A program made the position numbers and the translations under genes. A DNA stretch of 25,015 nucleotides from positions 1 through 25,015 of IMG/VR virus record IMGVR_UViG_3300034283_000603; one strand, 5' to 3'. This document shows, in pieces, positions 1 to 17,364 of this stretch (position 1 is the stretch's first letter; every line of letters starts with the position of its first letter). The notes under the pieces were generated by a model, which was given only the letters and a program-made list of their open reading frames with translations, did no database searches and was not told where the DNA came from. The stretch comes from a virus.

Positions 1-1331
1 CGAGAGATTAGCTTGTCGCCACGAGCTTGAAGACCCCATACAAGCGCTCTGTTAGGGTCTAGACCTGCCATTAGTCCGTATTCAACCGTAACTCCGTAGT
101 TACCGTTAATGTCGGCTGATGGTTTGTACTTTAACTTGTAAGGAACACCGTTTGCTGTAGCAGATACTTCACGTGTAACTTCCTTGAAGTAAACTTCATC
201 GGTTGCTAGTGCAAGCGAAATAGCTTGACCAATTGCCTCACCAAGTACTGATTGAATAACTTTAATTTGTGAATCGAATCCAGCCATAAGCGCCTTGACG
301 CCTTGACCAGTAACGATAGAACCTTCTGCTTGTCCTGCACGTGCTTGTGGGAATCGTGTTCCCAGCTTCATTTCATCGGCTAGAACATTATTCTCAGCAA
401 AAGCAAATTGAGGTACGTCCAGATTAATACGACGAATCTTCTCAGGGGAGTTAGAACGAATGACTGAATCAGGACCAACGGATAGCTGAGTAACATCAGT
501 AGGCAAAGCAAGAGGAGCCTCGACAGACTTCTGGACAGCCTCCATAGTAAGTAAAGCAAGTCGAGCTTTGGCAGCGTAGACAGGTAAAACATCGTCGAAC
601 GAGCCTCTGACTTCTCCATCAAGTGAAGGACGTTGAGCAATTGCAACTGGTACCTTACCCAATTTGTTCGGTGTCTGTGCAAGTACTACTCCCCCTCGTT
701 CTGGGATAAACATAATTGCTTGCTTCTTGTCAGTCCATCGTACAACTTCAAGAAGTTGGTTTGTATCTCCACGAGAGAACGCACCTGTTTGTAGAATCTT
801 GTCAGCATACTCAGGGAATTGAGCTGCTAAATCTCCCGCCTTACGATAGTAAGAGCGAGCATAAACTTGGACTTCGCCAAATCTATCAACGTCGTAATAC
901 GCACCCATGGAGTTTTCAACATGAATATGTGGGCGACGTTCTTTAAAGTTAGGTTCCACACGGAATACAACGAATCCGTATGTACCCAACTGGTCTGCGC
1001 CACGCAGTAGTTCCGTACCAAGTCGTGATGAAGCTACATAGTAATTACAAATCTTTGTACGCTTATCAGCTTTGGTACGCTGGGAATCATCGAGAGATGA
1101 ATCTCCAGCAGCAGTAATGGTAGGTAGAACACCAGCTTGCTCAGATACATCACGAGCTACAACGTCGATAAGGTTAGCAATGATTGGACGTGACCAAGTT
1201 CCTTCTGGGAACAAGCCACGAAATACTTGGTCTGCTTGACCAGCACGAACTAAAGCTACCTCGCGCATGCGCTTATCGCGCTCGGCGTTTCTAGCTTTTA
1301 ATTGCTCAAAAGCTTGTACGAATTCTTTCAT
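1..1331 (-). CDS. Phage portal protein (3' end beyond window)
   Basis: An open frame of about 443 codons runs from an ATG at 1331 to the window edge without a stop, so the C-terminus is missing. The product begins MKEFVQAFEQLKARNAERDK, is rich in charged helices, and contains a long helical, low-cysteine middle part. It follows the large terminase by only 4 bases on the same strand, the standard place for the portal, the dodecameric ring through which DNA enters the capsid. The start is supported by the tight spacing to the terminase stop; no strong Shine-Dalgarno is visible, so translation may be coupled. Identification rests on gene order and overall character more than on a diagnostic motif. 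A minor capsid protein is the alternative. Confidence 0.75.
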   Translation of the reverse strand, partial: MKEFVQAFEQLKARNAERDKRMREVALVRAGQADQVFRGLFPEGTWSRPIIANLIDVVARDVSEQAGVLPTITAAGDSSLDDSQRTKADKRTKICNYYVASSRLGTELLRGADQLGTYGFVVFRVEPNFKERRPHIHVENSMGAYYDVDRFGEVQVYARSYYRKAGDLAAQFPEYADKILQTGAFSRGDTNQLLEVVRWTDKKQAIMFIPERGGVVLAQTPNKLGKVPVAIAQRPSLDGEVRGSFDDVLPVYAAKARLALLTMEAVQKSVEAPLALPTDVTQLSVGPDSVIRSNSPEKIRRINLDVPQFAFAENNVLADEMKLGTRFPQARAGQAEGSIVTGQGVKALMAGFDSQIKVIQSVLGEAIGQAISLALATDEVYFKEVTREVSATANGVPYKLKYKPSADINGNYGVTVEYGLMAGLDPNRALVWGLQARGDKLIS

Positions 1332-11314: not shown

Positions 11315-11594
11315 GTGACTTCACCAAGTATTCGATTGACTTGAGCAACAGGTTAGGGTCATCGCCTAACAAACCAAGGGCGCGATTATGGTTACTGCAA
11401 AGCAGTCCTCGTACCTTGCCACTCTTATGACAATGGTCAATGTCGAGCGCTCTACTCGTGGGAGCTGAGCCACAAATGTAGCAAGCTCCACCCTGCTCTT
11501 CGAACATTCGGTCGTAGTCTTCAACACTAATACCGTAAGACCGAATGCGAGACACACGTTGCTCTTCGTAAGTTTTATTTCTGTTGCGTGGCAT
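11307..11594 (-). CDS. Endonuclease VII-like HNH nuclease
   Basis: A 95-residue protein with the recombination endonuclease VII pattern: YDRMFEEQGGACYICGSAP (zinc C38, C41), the catalytic LDIDHCHKSGKVRGLLCSNH (D53, H54, H56; zinc C66, with H69), then NRALGLLGDDPNLLLKSIEYL. Phage enzymes of this family resolve branched DNA before packaging. The length is that of the minimal catalytic unit. GGGAGAAG lies next to the ATG, and the start overlaps the preceding gene by 20 bases. Small HNH proteins can also be homing nucleases, but its fixed place in the coupled operon favours a replication role. Confidence 0.9.
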   Translation of the reverse strand: MPRNRNKTYEEQRVSRIRSYGISVEDYDRMFEEQGGACYICGSAPTSRALDIDHCHKSGKVRGLLCSNHNRALGLLGDDPNLLLKSIEYLVKSHD

Positions 11595-11892
11595 ACTTCT
11601 CCCAGATGCCTCGCTCTACCATCAACGCAATGATTGCGTAGTTGGCTATGTCAATGAAGCTATCTTCAAGTGCCTCGTTGTTTGGTTCAATACTGTTATA
11701 GATTAAATTCTTTAATCGCTCTAACTTATCTGACATACGAACCATCAACCCATTGGTTGCACCACCAGGTGCATTCCAAATATTGAGTGGACCGTAATCG
11801 ATTTGCTTCATGACCAAGATATCCAGAAGATGGTCGTAAATTTCCTGAGCGTCTTCCTGGAAATTATCGATGGTTAATTTACTGGTTGCCAA
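11575..11892 (-). CDS. DUF1599 / nucleotide-modification-associated-like protein
   Basis: A 105-residue all-helical protein. The pattern MKQIDYGPLNIW...GLMVRMSDKLERLKNLI...NEALEDSFIDIANYAIIALM matches the DUF1599 family, also named nucleotide modification associated domain 1: the conserved YG..N, R..DK..RL and D..D.ANY blocks are all present. Such proteins are related to MazG-type all-alpha NTP pyrophosphatases, so nucleotide pool clean-up or base-modification support is plausible but unproven. It starts with TTG at 11892, after AAGGGG. It sits between the TOPRIM primase and the endonuclease VII gene. Confidence 0.8.
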   Translation of the reverse strand: MATSKLTIDNFQEDAQEIYDHLLDILVMKQIDYGPLNIWNAPGGATNGLMVRMSDKLERLKNLIYNSIEPNNEALEDSFIDIANYAIIALMVERGIWEKYATQQK

Positions 11893-11903: not shown

Positions 11904-12551
11904 CTAACTGTCTAATGCATTAATCAATGCGGTTAATGCTTGAGCTCCTTGGTCTACAATTATACTATTGATATCACTGTCAGGCGGTAGCGACACGCGC
12001 ATAGACTGTGGGATTGCATCCTGTAATCTGCGAGCTAAGTCCTGCCCTGGGTTAGAGCCATCTTCTTTAACGTCGTTATCTGTAGCAATTACTACTCTAC
12101 CTATACCATCAAAACAACGTGAGAAATAAGGCTTCCAAGCGTTAACGCCAGCGACAGCGACAGCAGGATGACCAGCAAGAGTTGCAGAAATAGCATCAAT
12201 CTCTCCTTCAACAATTAACACCTCCCTTACCGCATGAAGTATTGCGCCTACGTTATACAAATGATGCTTCTGACCAGTAGGTATCATGTACTTAGGGTCA
12301 CCATCATCAATGCGACGGAACTTAAACCCGACAACACCAGCCTCGGTAATGTATGGAATAGATAAGTGATGCTTGAGTCTGTCCTCGTGACCAGCAGCAG
12401 GCTCTACTACATAGCCCAACAGAAATTGTTGGGCGCCATCTAGGATGCCACGCTTCTCAAGGTATGCCTCAGCTGGTGAACCAGCTAATGAATCGTGATA
12501 TGTATGTGCTGCCTTTGTCCAGAGTTCAATGAGCTTGGGATTGGTTCTCAC
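11904..12551 (-). CDS. DNA primase, TOPRIM part (split primase)
   Basis: A 215-residue protein holding the catalytic TOPRIM domain of a DnaG-type primase: VLIVEGEIDAISATLAG (E115 as the general acid/metal residue), VAVAGVNAWKPYF, and VVIATDNDVKEDG (D158-D160). The N-terminal 100 residues (AYLEKRGILDGAQQFLLGYV, GFKFRR) look like the primase RNA-polymerase N-subdomain. The CHC2 zinc domain is absent and is instead encoded two genes upstream (13075-13407), with the Ntn-hydrolase gene in between. The start is GTG, overlapping the previous stop (GTGA) with GGAGAAGAA upstream. Primase and zinc parts presumably act together with the helicase. Confidence 0.9.
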   Translation of the reverse strand: MRTNPKLIELWTKAAHTYHDSLAGSPAEAYLEKRGILDGAQQFLLGYVVEPAAGHEDRLKHHLSIPYITEAGVVGFKFRRIDDGDPKYMIPTGQKHHLYNVGAILHAVREVLIVEGEIDAISATLAGHPAVAVAGVNAWKPYFSRCFDGIGRVVIATDNDVKEDGSNPGQDLARRLQDAIPQSMRVSLPPDSDINSIIVDQGAQALTALINALDS

Positions 12552-13078
12552 TTCTTCTCCTGTCTGTGTGTAATAAACGGAGGTGCAGTATACACATCAT
12601 TGCGAGCAGCAATCTGCATTGCTTGCTTCCATGTTGCGCCACCTGCTAATGCACCAAGAGCCCATGATGAACCAGACCCTACGCCATACAGACCATCGTC
12701 ACGTAGGTATACAGAATAGTTATCATCTACTTGGTAGATGGTTCCATTGATTGCTAATAAAAATTCAAACCCAGCATCCTCATCATCCTTGCTTGGGCTA
12801 TACCCAGACTCCTTGATGCAGTCCCTCATGCTAGGTACTACGGTTGTAATCATAAAGTGATACTCGTCTTTGATATTGGCTGGGATTGCTGGTGGTTTCC
12901 ACACGTGTTGGATTACATCACATGGTTGCACATCACCTGCACCTGCGACCAGCCACTTGCCACGTTTAGTTATCTTAGTAACTATCGGATGCGAGAACGG
13001 TCTACCACCTGCTGTGGTACGTGAGTCGGCTGCAAGAATGCAGCCGTTGTCTTGTTGGATACCAATAATAGTTGTCAC
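12548..13078 (-). CDS. HslV/proteasome-like Ntn-hydrolase
   Basis: A 176-residue protein with the HslV/20S beta-subunit pattern. After removal of the initiator residue it begins TTIIGIQQDNGCILAADSRT, so Thr1 would be the nucleophile, with Asp17 and Lys34 (VTKITKRG) at the expected places. A GVGSGSSWALGA segment (about 132-143) matches the serine/glycine turn of HslV (IGSGG-x-YA-x-A). Length (about 175) equals HslV. It starts with GTG. It lies between the two primase genes with 4-base overlaps at both sides. No HslU/ATPase partner is in the window. It could be a peptidase acting with host unfoldases or on phage proteins. Confidence 0.85.
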   Translation of the reverse strand: MTTIIGIQQDNGCILAADSRTTAGGRPFSHPIVTKITKRGKWLVAGAGDVQPCDVIQHVWKPPAIPANIKDEYHFMITTVVPSMRDCIKESGYSPSKDDEDAGFEFLLAINGTIYQVDDNYSVYLRDDGLYGVGSGSSWALGALAGGATWKQAMQIAARNDVYTAPPFITHRQEKK

Positions 13079-13407
13079 AACGCAGCTCTCAATCTAGGTG
13101 GTGTCCACCTACCACTGCCCTTCTTCCGTCCACGTGTAGGAGTAGATGACTTAGACTCTTTGCCTATGTTCTTCTCCGCCCATGAACGAGCCTCTGGGTA
13201 TGTTAGCTTCTCACGTGCCATGATTATCTGTATACCAGAACCACTTGCGTTACATGCATAACATACCCAGACGCCCTTGTCTGAGTTTACTGAAGCAGAC
13301 TTACGTGAGTCATCATGTACAGGACACAGGATTGATTTCTCCCCGCCAAGTGGCAAGGTCAATCCGTAATGATTGAAGACTGCTTCTAGAAACTCAGGCT
13401 GATTCAT
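13075..13407 (-). CDS. DNA primase CHC2 zinc-binding part (split primase)
   Basis: A 110-residue protein with the DnaG-type zinc motif: CPVHDD (C28, H31) and WVCYACNASGSGIQIIM (C49, C52). A short helical segment (LTYPEARSWAEKNIG) and a basic tail (RGRKKGSGRW) follow. It recognises template for primer start in complete primases. The catalytic TOPRIM part is a separate gene at 11904-12551, with an Ntn-hydrolase gene between them. The ATG at 13407 has only a distant AAAGGA; the upstream lysozyme gene ends 3 bases away, so coupling is likely. Confidence 0.9.
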   Translation of the reverse strand: MNQPEFLEAVFNHYGLTLPLGGEKSILCPVHDDSRKSASVNSDKGVWVCYACNASGSGIQIIMAREKLTYPEARSWAEKNIGKESKSSTPTRGRKKGSGRWTPPRLRAAL

Positions 13408-13410
13408 TTG

Positions 13411-13788
13411 TTAATACCAGTTCCTTTCCTGGTGGAACCTGTACGCCCCGCACCAAGTATCGTATCGATGGAGCACGTAGTCGTGCGCCTCCTGAGTCTG
13501 TTTGAGTAATGACCAATGAGGTTTCCCCCATAGTAATTGCCACACTCCACGAGCTCCACTCTTTTTGTTGAGTGACGTCTCGTTGTAGCGACTCTCCTTG
13601 TACGCAATACGTTTCGCACATAGTCGCTGCTCCTTCTCGGTCACGAACTGAGCAATCGCATACTCCACTCTCTGTTCCTTGTCCATTACGGACATGCGAA
13701 CTTCGTGTGTAAGTTTGGGTGATAACGCTTGTGCTGGTGATACCAACACGAATGCTATCGCTATGCCCATCGTTGTCGCTAACCGCAT
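13411..13788 (-). CDS. Secreted lysozyme/transglycosylase-like protein
   Basis: A 125-residue protein with an N-terminal signal peptide (MRLATTMGIAIAFVLVSPAQA, predicted cut after AQA). The rest resembles a small soluble lytic transglycosylase fold: AYKESRYNETSLNKKSGARG, with E65 as candidate catalytic acid, VWQLLWGKPHW, and an ending HRYDTWCGAYRFHQERNWY, typical of small SLT-like proteins. It would cut peptidoglycan outside the membrane. AGAGG is close upstream of the ATG. It lies inside the DNA-metabolism operon, far from the endolysin/holin genes at 19674-20568. A longer frame at 13394-13840 in another phase is a shadow. Confidence 0.8.
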   Translation of the reverse strand: MRLATTMGIAIAFVLVSPAQALSPKLTHEVRMSVMDKEQRVEYAIAQFVTEKEQRLCAKRIAYKESRYNETSLNKKSGARGVWQLLWGKPHWSLLKQTQEAHDYVLHRYDTWCGAYRFHQERNWY

Positions 13789-13826: not shown

Positions 13827-14180
13827 TTACTGATGTCCATTGTAACCTGCCTGTTTAAGCAGATTTACCCAGAGTTCCGCAGGCATTACTGCATACGACT
13901 CTGAGATATTAGAAGTGCCACGCTTCTTCATTAAGACAACGCCTGTTTCTGCATCTGCATGCGTCATCTCATCCTCAAGTTCCCGAAGGTACTGAGGAAT
14001 TCTAAATGATTTTTCATTCTTGCATTCTATAACTACACCATTGATACCGTCAATGTCACCGACATCGTCGTGACGACCAGCACCATACGCACGTTCGGCA
14101 CATGGGTAACCCATACTTCTTAACCACTTGACTACGTCACGTTCAAACTGTGAGCCTTTACGTTTAGCTGCTGTTGTCAT
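13827..14180 (-). CDS. Holliday-junction-resolvase-like PD-(D/E)XK nuclease
   Basis: A 117-residue protein: KRKGSQFERDVVKWLRSMGY (E13), GRHDDVGDIDGINGVVIECK (D42, E52, K54), then IPQYLRELEDEMTHADAETG and GVVLMKKRG. This is the compact resolvase-type PD-(D/E)XK fold common in phages of actinobacteria, likely cutting branched recombination or replication intermediates. The ATG overlaps the WhiB stop (ATGA), with AGGAG 7 bases upstream. It is the second small PD-(D/E)XK nuclease of the operon besides 14611-15003; substrate specificity cannot be read from sequence. Confidence 0.88.
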   Translation of the reverse strand: MTTAAKRKGSQFERDVVKWLRSMGYPCAERAYGAGRHDDVGDIDGINGVVIECKNEKSFRIPQYLRELEDEMTHADAETGVVLMKKRGTSNISESYAVMPAELWVNLLKQAGYNGHQ

Positions 14181-14446
14181 GTGTAATCTCCTGGTATCAG
14201 TGAGTCTAGTTTTATATTTAACTTACGACGGATTGCCATTCGGTCACGCGGTGTCATCCCACCCCATAAACCATAACCTTCGTGGCGTACTGCCCAGTCA
14301 AGACATTCTGTCTTTACTTGACAGCCAGAACATATCATCTTGCCAAAAGCATACATTGATGTATCGCCTTCGTTCTCAGAATCTGGGTAAAAAAAATCGC
14401 TACCAACTTCTCTGCATTGACCACGTGATAGGTCTGGCATTCGCAT
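14177..14446 (-). CDS. whiB: WhiB-family iron-sulfur transcription regulator
   Basis: An 89-residue protein with the full WhiB signature: C11, then C39-x2-C42-x5-C48 (CSGCQVKTEC) to hold a [4Fe-4S] cluster, followed by GYGLWGGMTPRDR (the G[VI]WGG turn) and a basic tail (RRKLNIK) for DNA contact. WhiB proteins bind the sigma-A subunit and are found only in actinobacteria and their phages, so this is the best host indicator in the window. GGAG lies 7 bases before the ATG. It is coupled to the resolvase gene by ATGA. Phage WhiB copies may override host septation or redox programmes. Confidence 0.96.
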   Translation of the reverse strand: MRMPDLSRGQCREVGSDFFYPDSENEGDTSMYAFGKMICSGCQVKTECLDWAVRHEGYGLWGGMTPRDRMAIRRKLNIKLDSLIPGDYT

Positions 14447-14618: not shown

Positions 14619-15003
14619 TCTTTAATTCTTTCATAACATCTAGTAAATTTTCTACCGTAATCAGATAGCCCTTGCTTCTGTTCGGTGGTATCTCGCAAGT
14701 AATCTCACGTCCATACTTCTGTATGGCGTGACGTACATGACCAGTTGGTACCATCAATACGCCATGTTCCAGAACGAAAGCCCAGTAACTAGCCTTCGTG
14801 ACAGACAGACCCGATGGTTCCCATGAATCAGAACGCTGATACCAGCATTCAACTTCTATGTATAGGTTGCCAGTAGCATGCCACTTGCGGTCACGTTTAA
14901 CCTCAATGGTCTTGCCACCAGTAAGTAACTCTTCTACTAGCTTCTCGCCTGACTGACCATAACTAAAATCTAAATCAAATGAAGATAGATTACTCATTGC
15001 CAT
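14611..15003 (-). CDS. PD-(D/E)XK nuclease-like protein
   Basis: A 130-residue protein: GEKLVEELLTGGKTIEVKRD (E20, E34, K36) and GNLYIEVECW (E50) give the core of a PD-(D/E)XK fold, followed by SGLSVTKASYWAFVLEHGVL and a C-terminal helix. A role as a DNA endonuclease, perhaps against host DNA or branched DNA, is likely. The start overlaps the helicase stop by 10 bases; an alternative ATG is two codons inside. It is distinct in sequence from the nuclease at 13827-14180. Confidence 0.8.
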   Translation of the reverse strand: MAMSNLSSFDLDFSYGQSGEKLVEELLTGGKTIEVKRDRKWHATGNLYIEVECWYQRSDSWEPSGLSVTKASYWAFVLEHGVLMVPTGHVRHAIQKYGREITCEIPPNRSKGYLITVENLLDVMKELKNE

Positions 15004-15827
15004 TGACTCATTGTTCTGGCGCGGAACAAATCAGCTGGTGAATTATAGAGAACCATCTTGCTTGCCTCTGCTGCTAGAGATACATAGCTCTCTGCGGTTG
15101 GGTCTGCCTTGCCATGTCGGTTCTTAACAACGGCAACACGATAACTATTAGAAGCACTATCCAGAGCCACCGAAAGGACCAACTCTGGTAGTGCTGCTAC
15201 CTTACCCATCAAAGCTTTACGTGGTGCTGGGTAGTTTGGCTTAGACATCTTTTCATTCTCGGATACGTGGTGTAGGACGATGAAAGCCGATTCATATTCA
15301 CGTGCCATGTAGTGAAACGCTGACATGGCATCACGTAGTGCAGTCCACTCGTTATCGCTAGCGGACACTACGTTCATTAAGTTATCTACATATACAGCAG
15401 CAGGAGCCGAACCATGTAATTCAATCCACGCTTCTATCTCCTCTTCAATATCTTGAAGAGAAGGTGCTGGGTCGAACGCGAACCTTACATGGTTGGCACC
15501 TTCTGCTAGTGCATCCTCAAGGAGAACACTTGCTTCGGTATCCATCAGTCTTTCAACATCAGCAACATCTTTATTCATAATAATTGCACCAGCGCGAGTA
15601 GCGATGGTACGTGAATCAGAGTCTGCTGATATGTACAAAGATGGAACCTTAGAAGTAACGGCGTACCATAATGCAAGTAGTGTCTTGCCTCCGCCTGGTT
15701 GTGCAGCAATCAAATGCAATTGCGCTTGACGGAACACAACCTGACTGGCGGTGAGTTGAGGCAAGATTTCTGGTAGTTGATGACCAGCTGGTGACTCGAC
15801 ACCCACTACTTGCAATAGGCTACGCAT
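14994..15827 (-). CDS. DnaB-like / RecA-fold replicative helicase
   Basis: A 277-residue RecA-fold ATPase. Walker A is AAQPGGGKTL (41-50, K48), Walker B AAVYVDNLMN (D148), and the sensor/His block FIVLHHVSE (182-190) resembles DnaB helicases and RadA/RecA-like proteins. The usual N-terminal DnaB primase-interaction domain is absent, so this is the ATPase core only, as in many phages of actinobacteria. It should unwind DNA at the fork with the split primase downstream. The ATG overlaps the previous stop (TAATG). A perfect 8-bp hairpin lies in the gene at 15444-15463. Confidence 0.85.
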   Translation of the reverse strand: MRSLLQVVGVESPAGHQLPEILPQLTASQVVFRQAQLHLIAAQPGGGKTLLALWYAVTSKVPSLYISADSDSRTIATRAGAIIMNKDVADVERLMDTEASVLLEDALAEGANHVRFAFDPAPSLQDIEEEIEAWIELHGSAPAAVYVDNLMNVVSASDNEWTALRDAMSAFHYMAREYESAFIVLHHVSENEKMSKPNYPAPRKALMGKVAALPELVLSVALDSASNSYRVAVVKNRHGKADPTAESYVSLAAEASKMVLYNSPADLFRARTMSQWQ

Positions 15828-16288: not shown

Positions 16289-16957
16289 CTACTTTCTCTC
16301 CTTTTCTTTCCCAGTTGTTGGAAGTTGTAGCGGGAAATCTTTACTGCCCCATGCTGGACACTTCTCGACGAACGAACACATCTTGCAATTCTCACCAACA
16401 AATGTTGGGAAGTAACCTTGCAATACTGAGTGGTTCATTGAGGCAAACGCATGCTCATAGTATTCAATACTTAGGTGGGTTAAGTCAATCAAATCGCCAA
16501 GCTCGCCTTGGCGTGTCATAAAGAATGCGCCCCACTTGGGACGGATGCCATAAATCTTTTCAATACCACTGGCATATAAGCCATTCTGGATTACACCGAA
16601 TGGCGTCCTGGAACCTGTCTTGTAGTCAACGATAACCAAGTCTTCCCCTACTTGATATACCGCGTCGATAATAAATCTTACAGGTGTGCCTCCGAAATGC
16701 ACATCTGCAGACCACTCGATTCCAGGACGACCATCAGGCATAGTAGCGATTTGCCAACCAGATTGCAACATCCATTTCTGGTATGCCTCTACCTGCTTGA
16801 GCCCATCGCTCTGCCAAAAAGCTAAGTCCTCGCCATCTGGACGAGCAGCGGTCTTGCGACCAGCTGTCTTCCACTCTGTCGATGGGATTCCTGTTTGCTC
16901 TTCGACACTTCTAACTTCGTCATTAAAAACCTCAAGCCACTTCTCAGTTAAACTCAT
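16289..16957 (-). CDS. RecB/Cas4-like nuclease, C-terminal part (split)
   Basis: A 222-residue protein carrying the catalytic core of a RecB/Cas4-type PD-(D/E)XK exonuclease: FIIDAVY (D98), LVIVDYKTGSRTP (D111, K113), then QNGLYA (Q124, Y128). Its C-terminus CKMCSFVEKCPAWG (C191, C194, C200) is the CxxC-x5-C half of an iron-sulfur cluster. The family's N-terminal LTTWQSCP...GSAVH block, including the first cluster cysteine and the motif histidine, is missing here. It is encoded separately at 17155-17364. GAGGAAG lies before the ATG; the start overlaps the zinc-ribbon gene by 14 bases. The frame has a stop at 16985-16987, so it cannot extend upstream. Confidence 0.88.
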   Translation of the reverse strand: MSLTEKWLEVFNDEVRSVEEQTGIPSTEWKTAGRKTAARPDGEDLAFWQSDGLKQVEAYQKWMLQSGWQIATMPDGRPGIEWSADVHFGGTPVRFIIDAVYQVGEDLVIVDYKTGSRTPFGVIQNGLYASGIEKIYGIRPKWGAFFMTRQGELGDLIDLTHLSIEYYEHAFASMNHSVLQGYFPTFVGENCKMCSFVEKCPAWGSKDFPLQLPTTGKEKERK

Positions 16958-17192
16958 CGTCTTCTTCCTCTGGTTGTTCTGGTTTCACGTAGTCTGGATG
17001 GTCTACTGGTGTGGGTGTTGTCATAGGTGAGCCACATTGGGCGCAGAAAGAATCGGTGAACCACATAACCAAGTCATAGTCTTGGAAGATGGCTCTGATT
17101 ATTTGAATGTTTGAACCGCAGTTCACACATTCATTGCTGGGGATTCCCCGCTGGTCAATTAGATTGCTGTTGTTGCTGCTTGTAGAACTCAT
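16944..17192 (-). CDS. Small zinc-ribbon protein inserted between nuclease parts
   Basis: An 82-residue protein. The CVNC (22-25) and CAQC (50-53) pairs form a zinc ribbon around IIRAIFQDYDLVMWFTDSF, a pattern of small proteins in phages of actinobacteria. An acidic tail (QPEEEDDEFN) follows. It overlaps the N-terminal nuclease part by 38 bases and the C-terminal part by 14 bases, each in a different frame. The ATG has no clear ribosome site, so it is probably coupled. A job as partner of the split nuclease is suggested by position only. Confidence 0.8.
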   Translation of the reverse strand: MSSTSSNNSNLIDQRGIPSNECVNCGSNIQIIRAIFQDYDLVMWFTDSFCAQCGSPMTTPTPVDHPDYVKPEQPEEEDDEFN

Positions 17193-17364
17193 GGTTCAAC
17201 CATTCCAACATAGAGTGAACAGCTGAACCAGCTGCTAGATATACTGCGGGTTTCTCTGGTACCATGGCAACCTTACTCAAGTAATATTTCTGAGGGCAGG
17301 ATTGCCAGGTTGTTAGCTGACTGTAAGACCGATGCGGAGGAAGTTTATTCATACCGTAAATCAT
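17155..17364 (-). CDS. RecB/Cas4-like nuclease, N-terminal part (split)
   Basis: A 69-residue protein equal to the N-terminal block of a RecB/Cas4-type nuclease: SYSQLTTWQSCPQKYYLSKV (C23, first iron-sulfur ligand) and VYLAAGSAVHSMLEWL (H50, motif I). It ends in KQQQQQSN, just where the rest of the family would continue into the segment now at the start of the gene at 16289-16957. Joining the two gives about 290 residues, the usual length. It is the first gene of the leftward replication operon; AAAGGA lies 10 bases before the ATG at 17364. Confidence 0.85.
   Translation of the reverse strand: MIYGMNKLPPHRSYSQLTTWQSCPQKYYLSKVAMVPEKPAVYLAAGSAVHSMLEWLNHEFYKQQQQQSN

Follow-up and report, generated by a model that had tools for sequence, protein, structure and literature searches.

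Beside the replication genes of a virus fragment lies a proteasome-like protease gene that is single-copy in nearly every near-complete genome we checked from a family of ~40-kb freshwater actinophages. The fragment, called the window here, is the whole stretch of 25,015 bases analysed (IMG/VR record IMGVR_UViG_3300034283_000603). What is new is the fixed single copy, its two addresses, at the portal gene or at the primase genes, and its apparent replacement in place by distant homologs. We favour, with a probability of roughly 0.6, a self-sufficient Ntn peptidase with an active Thr1, matured by methionine aminopeptidase and acting during infection, rather than a primase-specific device. Computation supplied the fold, the conserved catalytic residues, purifying selection, the single copy, the two addresses and the lack of any detectable dedicated unfoldase; the ring, the maturation and the activity we infer. 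Host methionine aminopeptidase would take off Met1 and expose Thr1, the subunits would assemble into a ring like that of BPH or HslV, and the complex would break down unfolded or specific host or phage proteins in infection with no dedicated ATPase. A place between the primase halves would provide co-expression with the replication operon and translational coupling through 4-nt overlaps. We take the primase site as one of two ways to express the protease and not as a functional lock. Counting against the favoured reading, a pair of separate roles would explain the two addresses as well as a single general role does.

The features of the window on which the argument draws are these:

12548-13078, minus strand: proteasome-like Ntn hydrolase, 176 aa, with a GTG start, then the catalytic Thr1, and no propeptide (PHROG_1040, 1.2e-28; PF00227, 3.5e-4; AF2 pLDDT 90.4; BPH TM 0.78)
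13075-13407, minus strand: CHC2 zinc-finger half of a split DnaG-type primase, 110 aa (PF01807, 8.8e-12; phrog_360, 1.5e-24; CPVH...CYAC motif)
11904-12551, minus strand: TOPRIM half of the split primase, 215 aa (Toprim_3, PF13362, 1.1e-8; Toprim_2, 2.1e-7; phrog_47, 1e-30; phrog_849, 5.9e-29; VEGEID and TDND motifs)
13075-13078, minus strand: GTGA overlap of the CHC2 stop and the protease start, 4 nt (4 or 1 nt across the clade)
12548-12551, minus strand: GTGA overlap of the protease stop and the TOPRIM start, 4 nt
14994-15827, minus strand: DnaB-like replicative helicase in the same operon (phrog_243, 3.8e-75)
11575-11892, minus strand: DUF1599-type gene downstream of TOPRIM (PF07659, 8.5e-7), syntenic in relatives
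3-1331, minus strand: portal gene, running off the window; the alternative protease address in relatives is directly downstream of portal
17155-17364, minus strand: N-terminal part of a split PDDEXK/Cas4-like exonuclease (PF12705, 3.4e-7; positions 11-69 of the phrog_1870 profile)
16944-17192, minus strand: Cys-rich, zinc-ribbon-like open reading frame between the exonuclease halves, 82 aa (weak zinc-ribbon matches only)
16289-16957, minus strand: C-terminal part of the split exonuclease (phrog_1870, 1.4e-67, profile positions 74-304)

A sequence-only reading of the window had described a split primase with an Ntn-hydrolase gene between its halves and 4-base GTGA overlaps at both ends. Reading frames, profiles and junctions agree with it, and the CHC2, protease and TOPRIM frames all lie where it had put them, on the minus strand. 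Both the CHC2 zinc finger and the TOPRIM domain of a DnaG-type primase were found, on two genes rather than one polypeptide in the window and in all relatives seen. The minus-strand operon also includes helicase, PDDEXK nuclease, WhiB and sigma-factor genes; the WhiB gene points to an actinobacterial host. In relatives of the primase-inserted clade the CHC2-protease overlap is 4 nt (GTGA or ATGA) or 1 nt (TAATG or TGATG), so the tight packing is conserved there; in two relatives a 72-aa gene separates the protease from TOPRIM. Elsewhere in the window (20822-24130), six adjoining genes of ~170-200 aa have similar ends (LYGI/LYGV) and form a tandem family, likely of virion or tail proteins.

The protease matches PHROG_1040, 'peptidase HslV family', over residues 1-175, and its match to the Pfam family Proteasome (PF00227) falls just under the Pfam cut-off. 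An AlphaFold model of the monomer, computed from an alignment of 28 sequences from the window and viral contigs, had a mean pLDDT of 90.4 and a pTM of 0.87. Its top PDB match was BPH (5OVS, TM 0.78/0.74), followed by HslV, Anbu and the 20S beta subunit, and its matches in a viral structure library were phage proteins labelled HslV or proteasome subunit. Model and PDB matches bear out the assignment to the Ntn hydrolases of proteasome fold. T1, D17, K34 and the glycines of the GSG turn, G133 and G135, are intact in the window and invariant in all 174 full-length aligned sequences (173 distinct homologs and the window), as the sequence-only placement of the active site would have it; Lys34 is equivalent to Lys33 with one inserted residue. 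Glycine occupies mature position 47 in 168 of the 174. We looked in close relatives for loss of Thr1 or of the lysine, named beforehand as grounds for giving up the idea of a protease, and found none: all 174 keep these residues, and a Met-Thr start is present in every one of 291 hits. The start codon overlaps the upstream stop and there is no propeptide. The median pairwise dN/dS of 0.07 in a close set of proteases, with dS near saturation, is readable only as a sign of strong purifying selection on the protease. Two pattern scans of genome contigs, which miss distant relatives, detected no cellular ones.

Phage proteasome homologs were already known, and so was the family of the window gene (PHROG_1040). 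Fuchs, Alva and Lupas (2021) described many proteasome homologs, including viral ones, with PPH, AAH and CPH as phage group I; they did not find AAH in actinophages and reported no genomic context informative as to function (PMC8665760). By its fold, active site and missing propeptide, the window protease is a proteasome-like group I phage homolog. The model has the beta-sandwich core with flanking helices and lacks a C-terminal H5; like PPH, AAH and CPH, the protein is phage-encoded and compact, with the Thr1/Asp17/Lys33 active site and no AAA+ partner. Unlike AAH in the 2021 study, its family occurs in actinophages, and it keeps to strict gene addresses. We rejected membership of PPH, which is ~140 aa long and lacks H2, as the window protease has 176 aa and its model contains both H1 (residues 50-58) and H2 (residues 72-90). 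H1 is short, and on this model the packing of a ring may differ from that of BPH or HslV.

BPH is a heptameric double ring and HslV a double hexameric ring. BPH of Thiobacillus denitrificans has the closest solved fold, at 22% identity to the protease. It is a cellular protein, whereas ours is from a phage, and we know of no dedicated unfoldase for either. In BPH, H1 and H2 are joined by a long acidic pore loop; the corresponding segment of the window protease, residues 59-71 (VWKPPAIPANIKD), is short and not acidic. The protease resembles HslV (ClpQ) in length, Met-Thr start, fold and active site, but no HslU-type AAA_2 gene was found in 20 phage records, and the equivalog scores of 14.7 and 15.2 bits (NCBIfam TIGR03692/NF003964) lie far under the cut-offs of 157.75 and 137, so HslV proper was rejected. 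The search for HslV and proteasome families proposed with the sequence-only reading thus returned a proteasome-like family, PHROG_1040, and not HslV itself. The 20S beta subunit was rejected likewise (TIGR03634/TIGR03690, 27.9 against 224 and 12.1 against 191.9 bits), as was connectase, since H1 and H2 are both present in the model and the two-helix insertion that connectase has between S3 and S4 is missing. An HslV without HslU has been reported in the Salmonella jumbo phage SNUABM-04 (PMC7823757) and a 'proteasome-like' protein annotated in Alteromonas phage V22 (PMC7289586). These proteins, likewise annotated as HslV or proteasome-like, belong to other phage groups, and the parts of the two reports drawn on here note no primase or portal address for them.

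We surveyed synteny in related phages and found two protease addresses, one at the portal gene and one within or after the split primase. The order CHC2-protease-TOPRIM is kept in close relatives (about 45 loci; 76 TOPRIM loci), and another lineage, with a protease ~60% identical, has CHC2-TOPRIM-protease. A larger set of relatives comprised 80 of 346 candidate stretches, mostly 60-65% identical to their own query and 45-49% to the window. In its main branch the protease directly follows portal wherever portal is covered, and the ~80 TOPRIM loci of this portal lineage read helicase-nuclease-CHC2-TOPRIM-DUF1599 with no protease between. Whole genomes are otherwise largely syntenic; the genes that have moved are those for the protease, the Cys-rich frame, WhiB and the transglycosylase. 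The WhiB-like gene (14177-14446) and a small SLT transglycosylase-like gene (13411-13788) lie within the replication operon of the window, and their homologs in the portal lineage lie elsewhere on the opposite strand. In the window lineage (L079, 17883-19724) the slot after portal, taken by the protease in relatives, holds genes of 107 and 499 aa, the latter with a C-terminal endolysin- or transglycosylase-like match. One record of 82,688 bases (IMGVR_UViG_3300027754_000069; L020, L041) contains two full, different protease/primase operons and is probably two phages joined in assembly.

One related phage has a cultivated host. OX376640 is Planktophila phage LanE43AprE7 (E7 below), which was obtained with Ca. 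Planktophila LanE-43 of the order Nanopelagicales as host; the main text of the paper describing it names no HslV or protease and mentions genes for degradation of host proteins (PMC10202952). LanE43AprE7/F5 (OX376640/41) share with the window the terL-portal-...-exo-helicase-primase backbone and a 40%-identical protease; unlike in the window, the protease follows portal, and the CHC2 and TOPRIM genes overlap directly. The basal, portal-adjacent position of E7 slightly favours portal as the ancestral address, the rooting being uncertain.

In many tailed phages the slot after terL and portal is that of the prohead protease. The gene might thus encode a head or virion maturation protease that clips scaffold, portal or ejection proteins and has merely been moved in the window lineage. 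The protease adjoins portal in essentially all members of the ~62% identity cluster for which upstream sequence is available, the ~41-kb genomes contain a scaffold-like gene and an MCP, and scanning of head-module genes revealed no other prohead protease. However, the MCP is ~8 kb away on the downstream side, beyond very large virion-type genes, and the protease gene is part of the replication operon in two lineages whose terL, portal, scaffold and MCP modules are the same. Distant relatives in other phages are found by RNR and PhoH (Vibrio, Pseudoalteromonas), DHFR/TS/RNase H (Pantoea), ThyX (Microbacterium) or WhiB (DSL-LC01), or in unrelated regions, among hypothetical genes in Psychrobacter and Moorella phages. 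In L055 the protease follows genes for Prim-Pol, adenylosuccinate synthetase, deoxyribosyltransferase and dUTPase. We keep a role in head maturation as an unlikely reading and do not accept it, given the two lineages in which the protease gene is found outside the head module. As a separate observation, the adenylosuccinate-synthetase-like gene beside the protease of L055 (613-6531) may be PurZ-like, and this phage possibly has a modified base (2-aminoadenine).

The sequence-only reading saw no HslU-type unfoldase in the window, which proved correct and extends to whole related genomes: a profile search for AAA_2 unfoldases found none in 20 phage records. The AAA hits that were mapped were the replicative helicase, the mapping leaving out frames of 253 aa (G004) and 452 aa (G015) and hits in the large phages W02 and W03. 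With no phage unfoldase found, and Mpa/ARC and Clp ATPases being common in actinobacteria, the protease could be a core peptidase with a host AAA+ unfoldase (Mpa/ARC, ClpX or ClpC) as its docking partner, hijacked for targeted degradation. This seems to us distinctly unlikely. No unfoldase is known for BPH, and relatives of the protease occur in phages of unrelated hosts. The docking interfaces of HslV and the 20S proteasome differ and are specific (PMC8665760), and the protease is far in sequence from both families.

Exactly one protease copy was present in 29 of 29 records, some of which were found via the protease itself. Among the 14 records found only through TOPRIM, 11 had one copy and the three without were fragments of 20-25 kb. 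Near-complete genomes carried their one copy at portal or at the primase. The backbone (whole-genome) tree and the protease tree conflict in two places, with long branches that leave exact placement unsure. Phages E7 and G018 are 87% identical in portal, 88% in helicase and 82% in terL, but 41% in the protease; G031 and G029 are 69% identical in TOPRIM and 72% in terL, but 22% in the protease. The G031 protease keeps the same address and still belongs to PHROG_1040, and there are seven such loci (L286-L292). From these identities, the E7 and G031 types are best read as swaps in place for distant homologs, the alternative being very fast local divergence. The window and G029 show 62% identity in the protease, 36% in helicase and 45% in terL, a pattern that suggests either a slowly evolving protease or exchange between lineages. 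The near-universal single copy, the two fixed places and the swaps suggest that these phages need the protease.

The low identity of the E7 and G031 proteases beside far more similar backbone genes would also fit a counter-defence or host-takeover protease in an arms race, in which changing host targets or inhibitors drive the swaps at fixed addresses, and the same genomes carry WhiB and sigma-factor genes for host control. Within a lineage, however, selection on the protease appears strongly purifying and not diversifying, and no defence target is known. We regard such a role as rather improbable.

A protease dedicated to the replisome is a further reading, in line with the sequence-only view of it as translationally locked to the primer-making enzyme. 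The tight 4-nt overlaps are conserved, and adjacency to the primase occurs in two lineages and is kept even with a very different protease homolog. Against a lock, the ~80 related primase loci have no protease nearby while the genome has it at portal, and primases with and without an adjoining protease are both conserved. Since related phages express the protease from the head module, the primase address is not needed for its function, and a replisome-specific role is quite improbable. The tight packing with the primase genes stands; the ideas of a primase split by the protease, or of a bond between the two, are not supported. That the protease caused the split was rejected, because the halves are already separate genes in the loci without it. 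These loci, together with the CHC2-TOPRIM-protease lineage, show that the split predates the insertion: the protease entered the junction between two already separate primase genes. Where no protease lies between them, the CHC2 and TOPRIM genes share ~145 nt, read in different frames (for example L048, 2459-2604; L086, 10884-11032). Both encoded ends at this overlap look conserved.

A second enzyme in the operon was said to be split around a small gene in the same way. There is such an enzyme, a Cas4/RecB-like PDDEXK exonuclease, but its junctions differ, with overlaps of 38 and 14 nt instead of 4. The position of the Cys-rich frame is conserved in the window lineage and in the CHC2-TOPRIM-protease lineage, and relatives that have no frame at that place still encode the two exonuclease parts by separate genes. 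Both cases look like insertion between pre-existing halves. One cysteine of the exonuclease is encoded by the N-terminal gene (QSCPQKYY) and three by the C-terminal gene (CKMCSFVEKC); forming a Cas4-type Fe-S cluster would therefore take two polypeptides.

An Ntn hydrolase with no protease function, either an amidase or a ligase like connectase, is very improbable, even though connectase, a proteasome-like protein, shows that this fold need not mean proteolysis (PMC8665760). Our model has both H1 and H2 and no two-helix insertion, the reverse of connectase, and the best-matching folds are BPH and HslV.

A stand-alone peptidase acting during infection remains our preferred reading. A single copy in nearly every near-complete genome of a phage group that is abundant in freshwater, at a portal or primase address, with apparent swaps at least twice, indicates a real, selected role. 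These results extend the points made by Fuchs and colleagues in 2021 on actinophages and on gene context, and they show that phage genes can overlap tightly without being functionally bound to each other. With E7, a related phage with a cultivated host, the function of a viral proteasome homolog becomes testable. Very tentatively, and as a picture we think unlikely to hold in full, this family of freshwater actinophages may depend on one stand-alone proteasome-like weapon, kept at one of two addresses, whose versions are swapped as host targets change.
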